This document shows positions 1 through 33,221 of a DNA stretch of 35,957 nucleotides, in pieces. The stretch is from Bacteroidota bacterium (lineage in GTDB: Bacteria; Bacteroidota; Bacteroidia; Bacteroidales; Paludibacteraceae). The stretch is taken from NCBI GenBank assembly GCA_030706465.1, contig JAUZOM010000020.1:1-35957 (forward strand), in the 5' to 3' direction. The notes beneath the pieces were generated by a model. That model made no database searches. It had not been told where the DNA came from and saw only the letters and a program-made list of their open reading frames with translations. A program made the translations under genes and the position numbers. Each line of letters opens with the position of its first letter. Position 1 is the stretch's first letter.

Positions 1-219
1 ACGGCGATAGCTATGACTTTTGCCCATTGTATTGGTGAGTTCGGGGTAGTCATTATGGTGGGTGGCAATATGCCGGGGGAAACGCGCGTAGCTTCCATTG
101 CCATTTACGATGAAGTCCAGGCGATGAATTACCATGCCGCCAACCAATATTCATTTATTTTATTCATTATTTCATTGCTAATCCTGACGCTGGTTTACAG
201 CATTAAAAAGAACCCCTAG
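1..219 (+). CDS. modB: Molybdate ABC transporter permease ModB, 3' end (5' part outside window)
   Basis: Frame open from base 1; TAIAMTFAHCIGEFGVVIMVGGNMPGETRVASIAIYDEVQ matches the C-terminal permease region of ModB; followed by modC. Last residues KNP* are encoded by a repeat copy. Confidence 0.85.
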   Translation, partial: TAIAMTFAHCIGEFGVVIMVGGNMPGETRVASIAIYDEVQAMNYHAANQYSFILFIISLLILTLVYSIKKNP

Positions 220-233
220 CCCCTAAAGGGGAA
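211..233 (-). repeat. Nif-junction repeat, reverse copy (modB 3' end)
   Basis: aacccctagcccctaaaggggaa; exact core CCCCTAAAGGGG; contains the modB stop TAG. Confidence 0.9.
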
Positions 234-341
234 CAAGAAAAGACCCCTTAATTATAAAAAGAAAAAACCTTTCCCCTCCCGGTAAATTGAGATAAATTGC
301 AGAGAACTAAATTAGTTCAGTATTTATAGAATAAAAATAAT

Positions 342-1115
342 ATGGAATCAAAATCAATTAATATAGACTGTAGTAACTCAAACTCCCCTTTAGGGGTCGG
401 GGGTAGTATTCTTTCTATCTCCATCCAACACGCCATGCTTACCTCCGAAGGTAAGACATACCTGGAAGTCTGCACTGAAATCCAGGGTAACGAACTGCTC
501 TGTCTTTTCGGGCATTCCGGGGCTGGAAAAACAACGTTGTTGCGCCTGTTAGTCGGCTTAACGAAACCGGATAGAGGGAGAATAGTTTTTAATGATACCG
601 TGTGGTTTGATTCGGAGAAAAAAATAAATGTTCCGCCACAGGAACGTAATGTAGGGTATATGTCGCAGGATTATGCCCTTTTCCCCAATATGACGGTAGA
701 GAAAAACATCCGTTTTGCCCAAAAGGATAAGAACAAGAGGGAGGTGGATAAATTAATGGATCTCTTCGATTTGAATATTTTAAGGCACCAGCATCCGGGT
801 AAACTATCCGGGGGACAAAAACAACGGGTAGCACTAGCCCGTGCCCTAGCGGCCAGGCCCAATGTTCTGTTGCTTGATGAACCGCTTTCGGCCCTTGACT
901 TCGATATGCGCAAGTCACTGCAACACGAGATACGCAAAGCTCACAAACTCCTTAACACAGTTACTTTGATGGTCAGTCACGATATTCCTGAAGTAATTCA
1001 ACTGGCATCGTCTGTTCTAATTCTCAAAAACGGGACGGTAATTCATCGGGGCAAACCGGATGATGTTTTCCAACTTCAAGCACCTGTTTTTGATTTAAAA
1101 GTTCCTACATTTTAA
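342..1115 (+). CDS. modC: Molybdate ABC transporter ATP-binding protein ModC (short form, no obvious C-terminal TOBE/Mop domain)
   Basis: Walker A GHSGAGKTT, signature LSGGQKQRVALARALA, Walker B VLLLDEP; adjacent to modB. N-terminal extension MESKSINIDCSNSNSPLGVGG is repeat-encoded. Confidence 0.85.
   Translation: MESKSINIDCSNSNSPLGVGGSILSISIQHAMLTSEGKTYLEVCTEIQGNELLCLFGHSGAGKTTLLRLLVGLTKPDRGRIVFNDTVWFDSEKKINVPPQERNVGYMSQDYALFPNMTVEKNIRFAQKDKNKREVDKLMDLFDLNILRHQHPGKLSGGQKQRVALARALAARPNVLLLDEPLSALDFDMRKSLQHEIRKAHKLLNTVTLMVSHDIPEVIQLASSVLILKNGTVIHRGKPDDVFQLQAPVFDLKVPTF
372..404 (+). repeat. Nif-junction repeat, forward copy inside the modC ORF
   Basis: agtaactcaaactcccctttaggggtcgggggt; reads SNSNSPLGVGG. 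Confidence 0.9.
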
Positions 1116-2180: not shown

Positions 2181-2203
2181 AACCCCCAACCCCTAAAGGG
2201 GAG
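2181..2203 (-). repeat. Nif-junction repeat, reverse copy (after nifH)
   Basis: aacccccaacccctaaaggggag. Confidence 0.9.
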
Positions 2204-2263
2204 TAAGACACGGTCTTTGATAAAGTTTGGGGATACTTTGAATATAAAAAACTTGGTCTTTAA

Positions 2264-2284
2264 GTCCCTTTAGGGGTTAAGGGT
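2264..2284 (+). repeat. Nif-junction repeat, forward copy (one mismatch in core)
   Basis: gtccctttaggggttaagggt. Confidence 0.85.
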
Positions 2285-2311
2285 CATTAATTTACAAACA
2301 CAAACTTCCGT

Positions 2312-2336
2312 TACTCCCCTTTAGGGGGCGGGGGTC
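2312..2336 (+). repeat. Nif-junction repeat, second forward copy (before nifI1)
   Basis: tactcccctttagggggcgggggtc; ends 14 nt before the nifI1 ATG. Confidence 0.9.
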
Positions 2337-2674: not shown

Positions 2675-2695
2675 CCCCCAACCCCCTAAAGGGGA
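2673..2695 (-). repeat. Nif-junction repeat, reverse copy overlapping the nifI1 stop
   Basis: gacccccaaccccctaaaggggac; stop is TGA|CCCCC. Confidence 0.9.
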
Positions 2696-2742
2696 CTTTT
2701 GTCAGGGTGCAAACTTTGAAATTAATTACAAATCTCGACCTC

Positions 2743-2770
2743 TCTTATTCCCCTTTTGGGGTTAGGGGTC
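2743..2770 (+). repeat. Nif-junction repeat, forward copy before nifI2 (core CCCCTTTTGGGG)
   Basis: tcttattccccttttggggttaggggtc; ATG 14 nt downstream. Confidence 0.88.
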
Positions 2771-3321: not shown

Positions 3322-4956
3322 ATGGCAAAGACATTAATAGAAGATTTGGAACTGGGCAAATTCGTTGAAGAAGTTTCAGAAGCCTATCCAAAAAAAGTAG
3401 CGAAGAAGAGAATGAAATCGATGGTTGTGAATGACCCGGATTCAATACCGGAAATTCAGGCTAACGTTCGTACGATTCCGGGCATCATTACACAACGAGG
3501 TTGTACCTATGCTGGTTGTAAAGGGGTAGTACTCGGGCCTACCAGAGACATCATCAACATTACACACGGACCTATCGGTTGTGGATTTTACTCTTGGTTG
3601 ACACGTCGTAACCAGACACGTGCCGACAAACCGGAAATGGAGAACTTCATTCCTTATTCATTTTCAACCGATATGCACGATTCGAATATCGTATTCGGTG
3701 GAGAAGAAAAATTGAAGCAAGCTATTCGTGAAGCATACGAATTGTTCAAACCAAAAGGTATCGCAATATTCTCAACTTGTCCGGTAGGGTTGATTGGTGA
3801 TGATGTTCACCGTGTAGCCCGCCATATGAAAGAAGAACTGCCGGGTGTTAATATTTTCGGATTTTCCTGTGAAGGGTACCGTGGTGTATCACAATCGGCC
3901 GGTCACCACATTGCAAACAATGGATTGTATAAAAACCTGATTGGGAACAATGACAACTATGTACGTAAAAACAAATATGCAATAAACGTATTGGGTGAAT
4001 ACAATATCGGTGGTGATGCCTTTGTGATTGAAGATTTATTCGAAAAAATCGGAGTAGATATTGTAGCTACCATGTCAGGTAACTCTACCCTGGAACAATT
4101 TGAAACGGCACACACCGCCGACTTCAGTTTGGTAATGTGCCACCGTTCCATCAACTATGTAGCTGAAATGTTGGAAACTTCATTTGGTATTCCCTGGGCA
4201 AAAGCCAATTTTATCGGAGCGGAAGCAACAGCTAAAACGCTTCGTAAAGTAGGTCAGTATTTCGGAGACCAAGAGTTGATCGACCGTATAGAAGCAGTGA
4301 TTGCAGAAGAAATGATACCTGTAAAAGCAGCTATAGAGAAAGCAAAAGCTAAGACCGAAGGTAAAACTGCCATGTTGTTTGTCGGAGGTTCACGTGCTCA
4401 CCACTACCAGGAATTATTCACCGAGTTAGGCATGGAAATATTGGTTGCCGGTTATGAGTTTGGGCACCGTGACGACTACGAAGGCCGCCGCGTAATCCCT
4501 TCCATCAAGGTTGACGCCGATAGCCGTAACATTGAGGAAATAACCGTTTATCCGGATCCAACACGCTTCAAGCCACGCAAAACAGAAGAAGAGCTTGCTC
4601 AACTGAAAGAAGCTTTCGACATTGAATTCAACGATTACAAGGGTATCATGAAGGATATGAAAAAAGGTACACTGGTAGTGGATGATTTAAGCCACCACGA
4701 AATGGAAAAACTCATTGAAAAGTATAAACCGGATGTATTTTGTGCCGGAATTAAAGAAAAATATGTGGTTCAGAAAATGGGTATCCCCATGAAACAGCTC
4801 CACAACTACGATAACGGCGGACCTTACGCAGCTTTCGAAGGTGCTATCAACTTTTACAAGGACATTGAAATGATTGCCTGCAGCACCATTTTCAAACAAA
4901 TGAAAGCACCCTGGGAACTTGAAGAAGTTTTGGAAGCGGAATACGTATTCAATTAA
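3322..4956 (+). CDS. nifD: Nitrogenase MoFe protein alpha chain NifD (ORF track starts at 3295; ATG 3322 preferred)
   Basis: MAKTLIEDLELGKF...RGCTYAGCKGVVLGPTRDIINITHGPIGCGFYSW; CEGYRGVSQSAGHHIAN; MCHRSINYVAEM; MKQLHNYDNGGPYA. The long region around VIPSIKVDADSRNIEEITVYPDPTRFKPRKTEEELAQL fits the insertion typical of clostridial/group III NifD. Confidence 0.97.
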   Translation: MAKTLIEDLELGKFVEEVSEAYPKKVAKKRMKSMVVNDPDSIPEIQANVRTIPGIITQRGCTYAGCKGVVLGPTRDIINITHGPIGCGFYSWLTRRNQTRADKPEMENFIPYSFSTDMHDSNIVFGGEEKLKQAIREAYELFKPKGIAIFSTCPVGLIGDDVHRVARHMKEELPGVNIFGFSCEGYRGVSQSAGHHIANNGLYKNLIGNNDNYVRKNKYAINVLGEYNIGGDAFVIEDLFEKIGVDIVATMSGNSTLEQFETAHTADFSLVMCHRSINYVAEMLETSFGIPWAKANFIGAEATAKTLRKVGQYFGDQELIDRIEAVIAEEMIPVKAAIEKAKAKTEGKTAMLFVGGSRAHHYQELFTELGMEILVAGYEFGHRDDYEGRRVIPSIKVDADSRNIEEITVYPDPTRFKPRKTEEELAQLKEAFDIEFNDYKGIMKDMKKGTLVVDDLSHHEMEKLIEKYKPDVFCAGIKEKYVVQKMGIPMKQLHNYDNGGPYAAFEGAINFYKDIEMIACSTIFKQMKAPWELEEVLEAEYVFN

Positions 4957-4980
4957 CCCCCTGCCCCCTAAAGGGGAATT
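4954..4980 (-). repeat. Nif-junction repeat, reverse copy containing the nifD stop
   Basis: taaccccctgccccctaaaggggaatt. Confidence 0.9.
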
Positions 4981-5044
4981 AAGAAATGGTTTATTAAAAT
5001 CATTCAGATAATCAGGAATTAATAATTACAAATATAAGAACCGA

Positions 5045-5078
5045 AGTAACTTAATTCCCCTTTAGGGGTTAGGGGTTC
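5045..5078 (+). repeat. Nif-junction repeat, forward copy before nifK
   Basis: agtaacttaattcccctttaggggttaggggttc. Confidence 0.92.
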
Positions 5079-5095
5079 TTTAAAACATTAAACTT

Positions 5096-6475: not shown

Positions 6476-6498
6476 TGACCCCGAACCCCTAAAGGGAC
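6476..6498 (-). repeat. Nif-junction repeat, reverse copy adjoining the nifK stop
   Basis: tgaccccgaacccctaaagggac. Confidence 0.88.
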
Positions 6499-6586
6499 TT
6501 TAAGACGAAGTCTCTTATAAAAGTTGTTTAGTTAACACTCGTTTTTTTAGAAGGAGGTTTTGGGTTTATTTAGAAACCGGGGCTTT

Positions 6587-6614
6587 AATTTCCCTTTAGG
6601 GGATTTAGGGGTTC
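6587..6614 (+). repeat. Nif-junction repeat, forward copy before nifE
   Basis: taatttccctttaggggatttaggggtt. Confidence 0.87.
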
Positions 6615-6631
6615 TTAAACTATAGATCAAG

Positions 6632-7966
6632 ATGGCTCATATATTGGATGAAAGACAAAAACAGGTGTCGGTTGCCGGATTAAATGAACGGACTATCGAT
6701 TGTAATAAAGCCAGTTTAGCAGGGAGTGTGAGCCAGCGGGCGTGCGTATTTTGCGGTTCACGTGTGGTGCTTTACCCGATTGTTGATGCGTTACATTTAA
6801 TTCATGGACCTATTGGTTGTGCTGCATATACCTGGGATATCCGTGGGTCACTATCATCAGGTCCTGAATTACATCGATTGAGCTTCTGTACTGATTTGCA
6901 GGAACGGGATGTCATTTTCGGAGGAGAAAATAAATTATATGCCTCCATCATTGAACTGATTGACAAGCACCAACCTAAAGCCGCCTTTATCTATACCACC
7001 TGTATTGTGGGTGTTATTGGTGACGATGTGGAAAGTATATGCCGTCGGGTAGAAAAAGAAAAAAGTATTCCGGTTATCCCTGTACAGGCTCCGGGATTCC
7101 AGGGTTCCAAAAAAGACGGTTATAAAGTGGCCTGTGAGTCAATATTTAAACTGGTAGGAACAAAAAGCAAACCTTATACACCGGCCAAAAGTATCAATAT
7201 ATTAGGTGATTTCAACTTGGCAGGGGAACTTTGGATCTTATTGGAATACTACAAAAGAATGGGAGTCCATGTAAACGCCACCATAACTGGTGACGGGCGT
7301 GTAGACGATATTTGCAATGCGCATAATGCTGCCCTGAATGTGGTTCAATGTTCCGGTTCCATGAATTACCTGGCCAAGATGATGAAAGACGAATACAACA
7401 TTCCCTCCATGCGGGTTTCTTACTTCGGAATTGAAGATATGAGTGATGCACTGTATGATGTGGCCCGCTTTTTCAACGATGAGGATATGATGGAGAAAGC
7501 CCGTCAACTGGTAAAAGAAGAATTTGTCCGATTAATGCCGCAACTGGCCTGGTATAAAGAACGGTTAACCGGGAAAAAGGCGGCCATCTATGTAGGTGGA
7601 GCCTTTAAAGCCATTTCATTGGTAAAAGCATTACGGCTAATTGGTGTTCAATCGGTAATTGTCGGTTCACAAACCGGAACTACCGAAGACTATGAACTGA
7701 TTAAGCAGCTTTGCGATGAGGGAACTATTATTGTGGATGATTCAAACCCGGTGGAACTATCTCATTTTGTAAAAGAAAAGAAAGCCGACATTTTTATTGG
7801 AGGGGTAAAGGAACGCCCTATTGCCCACAAAATAGGTCTTGGTTTTTGCGATCATAACCACGAGCGCAAAGAACCCCTGGCAGGCTATGAAGGCATGATC
7901 AATTTTGCTAAAGAAATTTATGCAACAGCTATGAGTCCGGTATGGAAATTTACGAAGAACCCCTAG
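6632..7966 (+). CDS. nifE: FeMo-cofactor biosynthesis scaffold NifE
   Basis: CVFCGSRVVLYPIVDALHLIHGPIGCAAYTWDIRGSLSSG; TTCIVGVIGDD; between nifK and nifN. C-terminus KNP* is repeat-encoded. Confidence 0.95.
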   Translation: MAHILDERQKQVSVAGLNERTIDCNKASLAGSVSQRACVFCGSRVVLYPIVDALHLIHGPIGCAAYTWDIRGSLSSGPELHRLSFCTDLQERDVIFGGENKLYASIIELIDKHQPKAAFIYTTCIVGVIGDDVESICRRVEKEKSIPVIPVQAPGFQGSKKDGYKVACESIFKLVGTKSKPYTPAKSINILGDFNLAGELWILLEYYKRMGVHVNATITGDGRVDDICNAHNAALNVVQCSGSMNYLAKMMKDEYNIPSMRVSYFGIEDMSDALYDVARFFNDEDMMEKARQLVKEEFVRLMPQLAWYKERLTGKKAAIYVGGAFKAISLVKALRLIGVQSVIVGSQTGTTEDYELIKQLCDEGTIIVDDSNPVELSHFVKEKKADIFIGGVKERPIAHKIGLGFCDHNHERKEPLAGYEGMINFAKEIYATAMSPVWKFTKNP

Positions 7967-7981
7967 CCCCTAAAGGGGGAT
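7958..7981 (-). repeat. Nif-junction repeat, reverse copy containing the nifE stop
   Basis: aacccctagcccctaaagggggat; encodes NP*. Confidence 0.9.
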
Positions 7982-7986
7982 AAGAA

Positions 7987-8014
7987 TACCCCCAATCCCT
8001 AAACCTAAAGAGGA
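7987..8014 (-). repeat. Nif-junction repeat, degenerate second reverse copy
   Basis: taccccc-aatccctaaacctaaagagga; same layout, diverged. Confidence 0.6.
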
Positions 8015-8051
8015 GAAAGAAATAATACAACCGACTACTAAAAATTTGGAT

Positions 8052-9422
8052 ATGGTTAATACAGAAATATTAGGAAACAGAACTAACTCAAGTGTTCCTT
8101 TAGGGGTTAGGAATTCTTTAGGGGGCAGGGGGTATACTTCCACGCGGAACTCCTGTAAACTTTGTGCTCCATTGGGTGCATCACTGGTATTCAAGGGCAT
8201 TGAAGGGTGTGTTCCGCTTATTCACGGGAGCCAGGGTTGTGCCACTTATATCAGGCGGTATATGATCAGCCATTATAAGGAACCTGTGGATATTGCGTCA
8301 AGTAATTTCAGTGAAGAAACCACAGTCTTTGGAGGAAGTCGGAACTTTATTACCGGGATTGATAATATTATAAAACAATATAAGCCGCAGGTGATTGGTA
8401 TAGCGTCCACCTGTTTGTCGGAAACCATTGGTGAAGACATCCCGGGACATATCCGTAACTATTGCGAAACATACAAAGGATTGGAGAAGAACCTGCCCAC
8501 CTTCATTCATGCCTCCACACCCAGTTATTGCGGAAGTCATGCGGAAGGATATTATAACACCGTATTGGCAACTATCAAGACAGTAACAGAATACGAAAAG
8601 ACGGATAATTCAATTACTATTATTCCGGGAATGGTAACTCCGGCTGATATTCGATACCTCAAGGAATTGCTCGATGATTTTGGCTTAAAGTACACGCTGT
8701 TTCCCGATTACAGCGAAACACTGGATAATGAATACACATCGGAATATCAATTAATTCCTACCGGTGGAACGCCTATTTGGAAAATAAAACGCATTGGCAA
8801 TTCAAAAGCGGTTATTGAATTTGGAAATGTTTTTAATAAAGGGGTTAGTCGTACAAAGGATGTGGGTACCATTCAGTCTGCCGGTGAATGGCTGGAATCA
8901 TCACTATACATTAAGAATTACCAAATGCCTCAACCGATTGGCATTGAAGCTTCCGACCGATTGATGGACGTATTGAAAGAACTAAGTGGCAAGGAAATAC
9001 CGGAGAAACATCGTAAAGAACGTGGAAGGTTGGTGGATGCTTATGTGGATGCCCATAAATATGTGTTCGGTAAAAAAGCATTGTTGTACGGTGAAGAAGA
9101 CTTTGTAACTGCATTGGCCGATTGGCTGCGCGAAATAGGAATAGAAACATACTTCAAAAAAGGAGCAGATTTTGAAACGTTACGTGAAGAAGCAGAAAAC
9201 TTTAAACCGGACCTTTTAATAGGAAACAGCAAAGGATACTATATCGCACGGGAACGTAAGATTCCACTGGTTCGCTTAGGATTTCCCATTCATGATCGGT
9301 TTGGGGCTTCCAGGATTCATCAGATTGGCTATCGGGGGACACAAGAACTTTTTGACCTAGTGGTGAATGCATTGATTGAGTATAAACAGGAAAACTCACC
9401 GATAGGTTATAAATATCTATAA
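8052..9422 (+). CDS. nifN: FeMo-cofactor biosynthesis scaffold NifN (ATG 8052; the track's 8046 is TTG)
   Basis: SCKLCAPLGASLVFKGIEGCVPLIHGSQGCATYIRRY; STCLSETIGEDIPG; N-terminal repeat-derived stretch NSSVPLGVRNSLGGRG. Confidence 0.93.
   Translation: MVNTEILGNRTNSSVPLGVRNSLGGRGYTSTRNSCKLCAPLGASLVFKGIEGCVPLIHGSQGCATYIRRYMISHYKEPVDIASSNFSEETTVFGGSRNFITGIDNIIKQYKPQVIGIASTCLSETIGEDIPGHIRNYCETYKGLEKNLPTFIHASTPSYCGSHAEGYYNTVLATIKTVTEYEKTDNSITIIPGMVTPADIRYLKELLDDFGLKYTLFPDYSETLDNEYTSEYQLIPTGGTPIWKIKRIGNSKAVIEFGNVFNKGVSRTKDVGTIQSAGEWLESSLYIKNYQMPQPIGIEASDRLMDVLKELSGKEIPEKHRKERGRLVDAYVDAHKYVFGKKALLYGEEDFVTALADWLREIGIETYFKKGADFETLREEAENFKPDLLIGNSKGYYIARERKIPLVRLGFPIHDRFGASRIHQIGYRGTQELFDLVVNALIEYKQENSPIGYKYL
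8082..8133 (+). repeat. Nif-junction repeat, two abutting forward copies inside the nifN ORF
   Basis: actaactcaagtgttcctttaggggttag + gaattctttagggggcagggggt; reads TNSSVPLGVRNSLGGRG. Confidence 0.85.
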
Positions 9423-9446
9423 TACCCCTAACCCCTAAAGGGGAAC
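9423..9446 (-). repeat. Nif-junction repeat, reverse copy adjoining the nifN stop
   Basis: tacccctaacccctaaaggggaac. Confidence 0.92.
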
Positions 9447-9482
9447 AGAAAATATTACTAACGATTTTTAAATGATTAGAGT

Positions 9483-10793
9483 ATGAGTAATTTAGAAAAT
9501 ACAGGAGACAAAAGTAACTCCAGTTCCCCTTTAGGGGTTAGGGGTTCACATCCTTGTTTCAATGAGGAAGCAAGACATACCAATGCACGTGTTCACCTGC
9601 CTGTAGCTCCAAAATGCAATATACAGTGTAATTATTGCAATCGTAAATACGACTGCGTAAATGAAAGCCGCCCGGGTGTTACTTCTTCAGTATTGGCACC
9701 CTTTCAGGCTGTCGATTATCTGAAAGACTTGAATGGCCGGATAGAGAATCTGGCGGTCATCGGTATTGCCGGTCCGGGCGATCCGTTTGCCAATGCGGAA
9801 GAAACACTGGAAACCATGCGCCGCGTGAATGCAGAATTCCCGTATAAGATTTTCTGCCTTTCCACCAATGGACTTGAGTTGGAACCCTATATTGACGAAA
9901 TTGCCGATTTAGGCGTTTCACATGTCACCCTGACCATTAATGCCATCGATCCGACTATAACAGCCAAAATTTATAAATGGGTCCGGTATAATAAACATAT
10001 TTATCGGGGGGAAGAAGGTGCTGCCATTTTATTGGAACGCCAACTGGCCTGTATCCCGAAACTGAAGTCCAGGGGAATTACCGTAAAAATTAACTCCATT
10101 ATCATACCGGGAGTAAATGAGGATCATATTCCCGAAGTAGCTCGTGTATGTGCAGAGCTGGGAGCTGATGTCATAAACTGCATTCCCCTGATTCCAACAG
10201 CAGAAACACCTTTTGAAGTTGTTCCTAAACCGGATGCGAAAATGATATTCAGGGTTCGCACCTTATCATCCAATTACTTGAAGATTATGAGCCATTGTGC
10301 TCGCTGTCGTGCTGATGCGGCCGGCTTATTGGGCCAGGATCTCAGTGAAACCCATGCATTGCTGAAAGAGTATTCCTCCCGTGCTGAAGTTATGGAAACC
10401 AATGAAAGGCCTTATGTGGCTGTCGGATCAAATGAAGGATTATTAGTCAATCTGCATCTGGGCGAAGCACTCAGCTTATATATCTTTCAACAAAGTCCGA
10501 AAGGGTTTAAACTGGTGGAAATACGTCATACGCCTCCCAAAGGAAAAGGCGACGAACGTTGGCTTGAATTGGCCCGTTCATTAAAAGATTGCCGTGCCTT
10601 GTTGGTGAGCGGGGTGGGTGAAAATCCGAAAGCTATGCTTAAAGGATGCGGTATCCATGTGGTGGAAATGACCGGGTTGATCGATGAAGGATTGGAAGGC
10701 ATTTACAACAATAAAGTAATCCGTTCCATGGCGAAACCCGATGCTTTCAAATGTGGAAGTGGCTGTAAAGGGACAGCACAGGGTTGTGGATAA
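9483..10793 (+). CDS. nifB: FeMo-cofactor biosynthesis radical SAM protein NifB with C-terminal NifX/NafY-like domain
   Basis: HPCFNEEARHTNARVHLPVAPKCNIQCNYCNRKYDCVNESRPGV (CxxxCxxC); C-terminal LVNLHLGEALSLYIFQ...VSGVGENPKAMLKGCGIHVVEM is NifX-like. Confidence 0.96.
   Translation: MSNLENTGDKSNSSSPLGVRGSHPCFNEEARHTNARVHLPVAPKCNIQCNYCNRKYDCVNESRPGVTSSVLAPFQAVDYLKDLNGRIENLAVIGIAGPGDPFANAEETLETMRRVNAEFPYKIFCLSTNGLELEPYIDEIADLGVSHVTLTINAIDPTITAKIYKWVRYNKHIYRGEEGAAILLERQLACIPKLKSRGITVKINSIIIPGVNEDHIPEVARVCAELGADVINCIPLIPTAETPFEVVPKPDAKMIFRVRTLSSNYLKIMSHCARCRADAAGLLGQDLSETHALLKEYSSRAEVMETNERPYVAVGSNEGLLVNLHLGEALSLYIFQQSPKGFKLVEIRHTPPKGKGDERWLELARSLKDCRALLVSGVGENPKAMLKGCGIHVVEMTGLIDEGLEGIYNNKVIRSMAKPDAFKCGSGCKGTAQGCG
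9512..9546 (+). repeat. Nif-junction repeat, forward copy inside the nifB ORF
   Basis: agtaactccagttcccctttaggggttaggggttc; reads SNSSSPLGVRGS. Confidence 0.92.
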
Positions 10794-33179: not shown

Positions 33180-33221
33180 TTACTAATAACTAAACTAATC
33201 TTACTAATAACTAAACTAATC
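33180..33221. repeat. Perfect 21-bp tandem duplication overlapping the GH36 stop codon
   Basis: ttactaataactaaactaatc twice (33180-33200, 33201-33221). Confidence 0.9.

Follow-up and report, generated by a model that had tools for sequence, protein, structure and literature searches.

Several families of short repeats resemble the element described here. In the parts of the published accounts consulted, dimers of repetitive extragenic palindromes (REPs), or bacterial interspersed mosaic elements (BIMEs), are short palindromes arranged head-to-head or tail-to-tail with 20–100 bp spacers; they lie near gene ends, sometimes giving stop codons, and sometimes inside open reading frames (ORFs) (PMC3733652). 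Miniature inverted-repeat transposable elements (MITEs) with ORFs, such as ERIC/RU-1, YPAL/RU-2, NEMIS and BrickBuilt of Porphyromonas gingivalis, are ∼100–170 bp long with inverted ends, do not code for a transposase and give translated fusions (PMC2229807, PMC2759123, PMC10969869, PMC4596501). Rickettsia palindromic elements (RPEs) are palindromes that lie in frame inside conserved genes and are translated as part of them (PMC10969869, PMC3733652). Mycobacterial interspersed repetitive units (MIRUs) lie at operon gene junctions and engage translation of the next gene; one account places their insertions at start codons, an ORF being coupled at −4 nt (PMC12548453).

The window analysed here, 35,957 nt long, corresponds to the entire contig G000:C113 from the 337-contig, 4.34-Mb draft assembly of a Paludibacter-type member of the Bacteroidales, whose completeness is 94%. 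In its nitrogen-fixation (nif) operon the 5′ end of nifN holds a doubled short repeat, and an earlier, sequence-only reading had described two in-phase, translated copies; both copies are present and both lie in the nifN frame. This doubled repeat is very likely the right end of a dispersed, paired palindromic element of Paludibacter that acts as a stop-to-start cassette. The left arm of such a cassette would sit where the upstream gene stops, in some cases providing the stop codon itself; an A/T-rich spacer of ∼80 nt would carry an ATG some 40–46 nt before the right arm; and the right arm would be translated as a leader fused to a gene without a start of its own. At the level of sequence, the comparisons establish the anatomy of the element, its dispersal ahead of unrelated genes, the homology of its start-bearing spacers and the loss of native starts in nif genes. 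The cassette ATG would then be the start used in the cell, and the element would persist because the operon stays translatable.

The element occupies the nifE/nifN junction from end to end; this junction, with nifN itself and the intact element at the following junction, is laid out as follows.

7957..7981, minus strand: outer left arm, GAACCCCTAGCCCCTAAAGGGGGAT; its CCCCTAG gives the nifE stop codon (TAG, 7964-7966)
7988..8015, minus strand: decayed inner left arm, ACCCCCAATCCCTAAACCTAAAGAGGAG; partner of the inner right arm in the predicted fold
8015..8093, plus strand: spacer of the inner element, 79 nt; holds the start codon and is homologous to spacers ahead of unrelated genes
8052..8054, plus strand: nifN ATG start codon, within the element (spacer)
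8094..8116, plus strand: inner right arm, translated VPLGVRNS, 42 nt after the ATG
8117..8133, plus strand: outer right arm, translated LGGRG, core CCC deleted
8052..9422, plus strand: nifN gene with cassette-encoded leader, including the stop codon; ORF from TTG 8046; NifN/NifK/NifEN-type models
9422..9547, plus strand: intact nifN/nifB element; left arm 9422-9446, ATG 9483, right arm 9523-9547, leader MSNLENTGDKSNSSSPLGVRGS

From ATG 8052 the nifN N-terminus reads MVNTEILGNRTNSSVPLGVRNSLGGRGYTSTRNSCKLCAPLG; the protein quoted earlier omitted TRN. The first right-arm copy has the core TTCCTTTAGGGG, with two mismatches to CCCCTTTAGGGG, and the second, TTTAGGGGGCAGGGGGT, lacks the core CCC and has three mismatches over 12 positions. 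The second-copy tail, TTTAGGGGGCAGGGGG, is identical to 4957-4972 on the opposite strand. Matches to these repeats are far in excess across the window: 30 for CCCCTTTAGGGG with up to two mismatches against 3.3 expected (0/100 shuffles as high), and 10 for TTTAGGGGNNAGGGGG with up to one mismatch against 0.02 expected. At nifN two arms stand on each side in a concentric arrangement, the inner pair (7988-8015 with 8094-8116) within the outer (7957-7981 with 8117-8133), and these are also the pairings of the predicted RNA fold. In sister junctions that lack the element, a separate stop stands at the position of the outer left arm of nifE. Doubled arms on both sides also occur at nifV in L059 and at nifN in L071. 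The sequence-only reading overlooked the left arms at 7957-7981 and 7988-8015 and the place of the ATG inside the element.

The nifN frame is open from 7974, and up to 8201 its only in-frame ATG, GTG or TTG codons are TTG 8046, ATG 8052 and TTG 8172. No such codon lies between the repeat arms and the conserved STRNSCKLC, so every canonical nifN start reads through both repeats, and translation of both copies is well supported by the sequence. A miscalled nifN start, which would make the repeats an untranslated 5′ leader, has a parallel in both P-II genes, nifK and nifE of the window, where arms lie upstream of the start; it is nevertheless highly improbable for nifN, since the first downstream candidate, TTG 8172, sits inside the conserved CAPLG and would remove the conserved SCKLCAP. 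The use of a downstream start, named earlier as the case that would overturn translation, is thereby excluded by the sequence. The same holds more widely: among nif cassettes with a recognisable conserved body there is no ATG between arm and body in 17/17, and none of ATG, GTG or TTG in 12/17.

The arms and spacer of the element together span ∼105–130 bp, and copies take the form of inverted pairs bracketing gene junctions, with the consensus ACCCCTAACCCCTAAAGGGGAA for the left arm and TTCCCCTTTAGGGGTTAGGGGT for the right. Exact CCCCTTTAGGGG occurs 79 times in the genome (2 for the control), mostly at gene junctions among the copies examined. The sequence CCCCTTTAGGGGNNNGGGG was found in 40/48 Paludibacter genomes, and the pair CCCCTAAAGGGG-N64..94-CCCCTTTAGGGG in 31/48, with 0 control matches. 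Across the order the arm pair occurs in 8/295 genomes; one is the window's own, which leaves 7/294 others, five with one or two pairs each. In the remaining two, G207 and G242, the arms CCCCTAAAGGGG and CCCCTTTAGGGG form the ends of an unrelated, GC-rich repeat of ∼93–103 nt, present in 15 and 6 copies, respectively. The pair is absent from three other genera of the same family. Most of the genomes are metagenome assemblies; the same cassettes are also present in the single-contig genome G015, where nifE carries a cassette and the NifE leader begins MKNIKTNIINDTNFNSPLGAGGS. Left and right arms of one element agree at 17.69 of 20 positions, compared with 17.17 for within-genome reshuffles (sd 0.083, 0/2000; n=159, 35 genomes), so the arm pair behaves as a unit.

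Pairs were counted once per identical sequence, joining the nearest left and right arms and excluding L036, which is the same as the window; elements with more than one mismatch per arm, including that of nifN, stand outside these counts and were compared separately. In 59/323 pair-orientations of the sampled loci, 58 of them distinct, the spacer holds an ATG whose frame crosses the right arm and continues for at least 60 codons. The distance from this ATG to the core is mostly 40–46 nt (43 in 12, 46 in 9, 40 in 5), and start-bearing spacers are mostly 68–94 nt long, 19 of them 80–82 nt. The right arm translates as SPLGVRG, and in other frames as VPLQGLGV or SPFRGLGG. In the frame where TTTAGG would read as a TAG stop, 6/6 translated arms have TTC or TTA instead, a weak point; arm frame counts were given little weight because the ORF filter itself demands an open frame.

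The spacers are themselves related. With the arms and the 14 nt adjoining the right arm excluded, 48/58 spacers score better against another spacer than the best dinucleotide-shuffled control does, often against one ahead of an unrelated gene. In G002 the nifN spacer matches, along its full length, that of a solute-binding-protein gene in the same genome at 83%; for the nifE spacer of L066 the identity is 78% to that of nifV, 76% to that of nifB and, with the ends excluded, 80% to that of an acetyltransferase gene. The nifN spacer of the window is likewise nearest to spacers ahead of unrelated genes, with 72% identity to that of a GNAT-type acetyltransferase gene, L066:4762(-). Genes with cassette leaders include nifE, nifN, nifB, nifV, the modC-like gene, a class-III aminotransferase, U32 peptidases, a PfkB kinase, a GTPase, an ABC transporter and tryptophan enzymes (synthase beta type, anthranilate synthase, indole-3-glycerol phosphate synthase and glutamine amidotransferase); the names tryptophan synthase beta and haem enzyme rest on protein starts and a general Pfam domain. 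When 20 of the 58 leader-bearing proteins were tested, 19 matched Pfam families, and their functions are unrelated. On the stop side, 38/58 elements lie behind an ORF in the same direction, at least 100 codons long, whose end falls between −28 and +15 nt from the left core; at nifE of the window and in L085 the stop codon comes from the left arm itself.

Loss of the native start can be followed between the sisters G031 and L066 (NifN tree, support 99/95), where the native ATG of nifE, nifB and nifV is gone in L066. The nifB gene of G031 starts ATGGAAATGACCGAAGAAAGAAAACAAGCACATCCT; in L066, CAAGCACATCCT comes immediately after the right arm, with loss of the native ATG and the initial codons. 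The modC genes of the two, aligned by eye only, show a similar pattern. Since the empty form of nifB (MEMTEERK...AHPC) is common to many relatives, it is L066 that has gained the element.

These comparisons bear on how the doubling at nifN came about. The earlier suggestion of a second insertion keeping frame is not the best reading: it calls for two independent single-palindrome insertions into a tolerant site just after the nifN start, each in frame by chance, which we consider improbable. Relatives do hold 0, 1 or 2 copies at this site and the two right arms are different tail variants (TTAGG and GCAGGGGG), as separate insertions might leave them. Against this, both right arms have left-arm partners upstream, the ATG and ∼40 nt ahead of the arm belong to the unit that is repeated in other genes, and the native N-termini (MIEAK.., MEMTEERK..) are absent from carriers rather than displaced.

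Local tandem duplication of an arm (unit ∼30 nt) within a resident element, with no second insertion, is a less improbable origin of the second copy, although a doubtful one. Tandem same-orientation arms were seen 31 times in the sampled loci, 9 in ORFs and 22 outside, with spacings modulo 3 of 0, 1 and 2 in 5, 4 and 0 cases in ORFs and 11, 3 and 8 outside, too few to be read further; L014 has three right arms at 30-nt spacing. At nifN, on the other hand, the cores are 18 nt apart, the tails differ, both sides are doubled and the pairing is concentric. Such a duplication would nest inside the cassette explanation and is compatible with it; on the sequences compared, the doubling at nifN is the doubled end of a single junction element, through nesting or arm duplication. 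The 8.7-kb contig of L014 (G000:C77) holds three near-identical cassettes, at 412-561, 3966-4160 and 4540-4641, with 90–95% spacers; they precede different genes (a SIS-domain gene, a DUF4922 gene and a third) and have one, two or three right arms in tandem, spaced by 30 or 48 nt and all in frame.

The frame-keeping had also been taken as a possible sign of purifying selection on frame. A working nifN always keeps frame, so frame preservation is no evidence of selection on the leader, and purifying selection on its amino acids is not indicated: in the one pair compared, the nifB leaders of the window and L066 differ at three codons inside the leader, 3/3 non-synonymous. The other possibility offered, repeated tolerance at the site, is supported. 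When the proposed comparison of nifN 5′ ends was run on relatives, the number of copies ranged from none (MIEAKTYTSTRN..., MVEAKTYTSTRN...) through one to two, and some relatives had instead a palindrome from one of two other families in the same arrangement, the CTCTCC type being found in L057 and L059 and the CCCCTCC type in L064; there are at least six changes between filled and empty states over 22 rows of the NifN tree. Corresponding minima were 4 over 17 rows for nifB, 6 over 18 for nifV and 4 over 19 for nifE; states were assigned by eye, with any palindrome family taken as filled. The other palindromes (CTCTCCTTTGGAGAGG, CCCCTCCTTTGGAGGGG) have a translated right arm at nifN of L057, at nifN and nifB of L059 and at nifN of L064, and at nifE/nifN L059 and L064 show the complete layout of left arm, ATG and right arm.

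The element may move or be copied by recombination. At nifN the nearest relatives of the window have no element (L056) or one copy (L085), and the L085 nifN spacer is outside the ten best matches of the window nifN spacer, which favours separate gains of the two nifN elements. The nifN/nifB cassettes of the window and L066 are 89% identical and the nifB bodies 78%; L056 and L085, which are closer to the window, have no arm-flanked nifB cassette and a leader of the MEMTEERK form, with a different palindrome upstream in both. This combination would fit a cassette that moves or recombines by itself. The empty nifE/nifN site of L056 (Paludibacter sp. STB_57, L056:9620-10000) has a spacer of >300 nt made of short AATCAACTTA- and GTTGATTGG-type repeats, and is itself a long inverted structure.

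An alternative places the function in RNA: the repeats would be a structure between nif cistrons (a terminator, or a processing or stability hairpin), and their translation incidental. In 57/58 start-bearing elements the predicted fold pairs the left arm with the right, the nifN/nifB element of the window folds with a 23-bp stem (z −6.5), and the agreement of own arms beyond reshuffled partners is also what such a structure would produce. The nifN copy, however, is decayed on both sides (z −1.9, with 4/200 shuffles equally good) while the gene is intact, and structure does not open the start region. We regard a purely structural role as rather unlikely, and note that it and the cassette explanation are not exclusive and could both hold.

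Initiation itself may ask little of the element. Bacteroidetes are described, in the part of the source consulted, as lacking Shine-Dalgarno sequences, with initiation dependent on mRNA structure and on particular bases, A at −3 for example (PMC6847099), so an A/T-rich spacer with an ATG may suffice as a start site. Of the 58 cassettes, 33 have A at −3 and 33 have it at −6. A role of the stem in holding the start codon unpaired was rejected: the unpaired probability around the ATG equals that of shuffled spacers (0.576 vs 0.569, p=0.58), so folding gives the stem no support for a role in initiation; it is marginally above that with shuffled arms (0.576 vs 0.567, p=0.045). Most likely the element is tolerated as ending one gene and starting the next, with the leader as a neutral tail.

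The lack of opening at the start is one of several observations that weigh against the cassette interpretation. Within the pair counts, 102 distinct pairs have no start-bearing reading, so start-bearing elements are a subclass, and 10/58 spacers align no better than shuffled controls. Some genes, such as the signal-peptide gene at L186:3524, retain an internal ATG that is possibly the native start, and not every leader need therefore be translated. The locus sample was non-random, with nif loci and the first-listed places of a few genomes over-represented. As to mobility, a Y1 transposase partner was rejected: the genome has seven Y1_Tnp (IS200/RAYT-type) matches (L136-L142), none flanked by arms and with one loose single arm match among them, an absence that is not final in a genome 94% complete in 337 contigs. 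No transposase could be tied to the element, insertion sequences with matching ends having been sought only among Y1_Tnp. Filled and empty sites differ by replaced flanking bases, so no clean target-site duplication is readable, and none was specifically sought.

A bolder version of the cassette explanation can be put forward tentatively, and we hold it to be somewhat less probable than its negation. The element would be a mobile cistron junction, spreading as it takes the place of the interval between stop and start in operons. It would supply a stop, a start codon and a short leader of its own, and could thereby get into tightly packed operons, those of essential or costly pathways included, free of polar effects. 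The palindrome family would be exchangeable (CCCCTTTAGGGG, CTCTCC..GGAGAG, CCCCTCC..GGAGGGG) and the start-bearing architecture would stay, as at nifE/nifN. Such a junction could be favoured in Bacteroidota, where translation starts are independent of Shine-Dalgarno pairing and any A-rich ATG context would serve.

The nif operon occupies the initial 12.6 kb of the window in the order modC-like ATPase, nifH, two P-II genes, nifD, nifK, nifE, nifN, nifB and nifV; this assignment rests on gene order and best models, several scores lying below curated cut-offs. Arms occur ahead of the modC-like gene, after nifB, and at the nifH/P-II, P-II/P-II, nifD/nifK, nifK/nifE, nifE/nifN and nifN/nifB junctions. 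The remaining features are given below.

210..407, plus strand: element ahead of the modC-like gene; left arm ∼210-234, ATG 342, right arm ∼382-407, translated SPLGVGG
2181..2335, plus strand: arms at nifH/first P-II gene; pair with a 63-nt spacer and an additional right arm; untranslated class
2676..2769, plus strand: arms between the two P-II genes; untranslated, P-II models starting at an ATG downstream of the arm
4957..5081, plus strand: nifD/nifK element; right arm 5′ of the nifK start codon; untranslated class
6479..6610, plus strand: nifK/nifE arms; untranslated class

The P-II gene at 2707 (GTG) was dropped as a further in-frame case, despite a seemingly matching start-to-arm distance of 42 nt, because P-II models begin at the downstream ATG. 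Untranslated gaps also hold another type of arm pair (window 2190-2276, L056:3486, L066:9859), whose spacer is close to 60 nt and whose ends lengthen the inverted repeat (CTTTAAGACGCAGTTTC...AAACTTGGTCTTTAAG). A perfect tandem repeat of 2 × 21 nt (TTACTAATAACTAAACTAATC) lies at 33180-33221 of the window, near the end of a long minus-strand ORF.

If the cassette explanation is true, a repeat family supplies the start codon and N-terminus of conserved enzymes at many places, among them enzymes of nitrogenase cofactor assembly, tryptophan synthesis and haem synthesis, and the annotation of start sites and intergenic repeats in the Paludibacter group should change. The copies would also amount to a naturally replicated experiment on how translation starts in the absence of Shine-Dalgarno pairing, which could be tested in P. 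propionicigenes WB4, the cultured type strain, and the element would exemplify a repeat that lives inside operons without breaking them.

No paper was found that contains the string CCCCTTTAGGGG or SPLGVRG, and literature on Bacteroidetes palindromes, REP/RAYT systems, MITEs and start codons yielded no description of the element, although an earlier one is possible; within this incomplete coverage, there was also no account of an element in which the spacer is the regular source of the start codon and N-terminus for genes farther along an operon, the native start being lost. With REP dimers the element shares a short, high-copy, largely intergenic palindrome and inverted dimers within the 20–100 bp spacer range. 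The CGTC-tag REP class was rejected as its home, since GACG lies within 34 nt of the core in only 29/320 arms, and the arm core folds as a 4-bp stem, compared with the 8–9 bp stem and 4–5 nt loop of that class. A GTAG end tag was not seen, by eye and in the consensus only, and neither GTAG nor CGTC is a constant feature; a Y1 transposase gene flanked by the repeats, the RAYT-type arrangement, occurs at 0/7 loci. Like a MITE, the element has terminal inverted repeats on a short body without transposase coding, and like RPEs it is in frame with conserved protein genes, Pfam domains lying downstream in 19/20 of the tested leader proteins. By these features its building plan is that of a REP dimer or a MITE, and it does not appear to belong to the GTAG or CGTC REP classes. 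It differs from REPs, many N-terminal examples of which are deemed probably untranslated in the consulted part of PMC3733652, in that the Paludibacter spacer carries the start and the native start is gone. As far as the sources consulted describe the other two systems, RPEs are inserts within ORFs, whereas the Paludibacter element spans an intergenic junction and brings an ATG; and it is set apart from MIRUs by a leader fused in frame to the next gene, whose native ATG has been lost.
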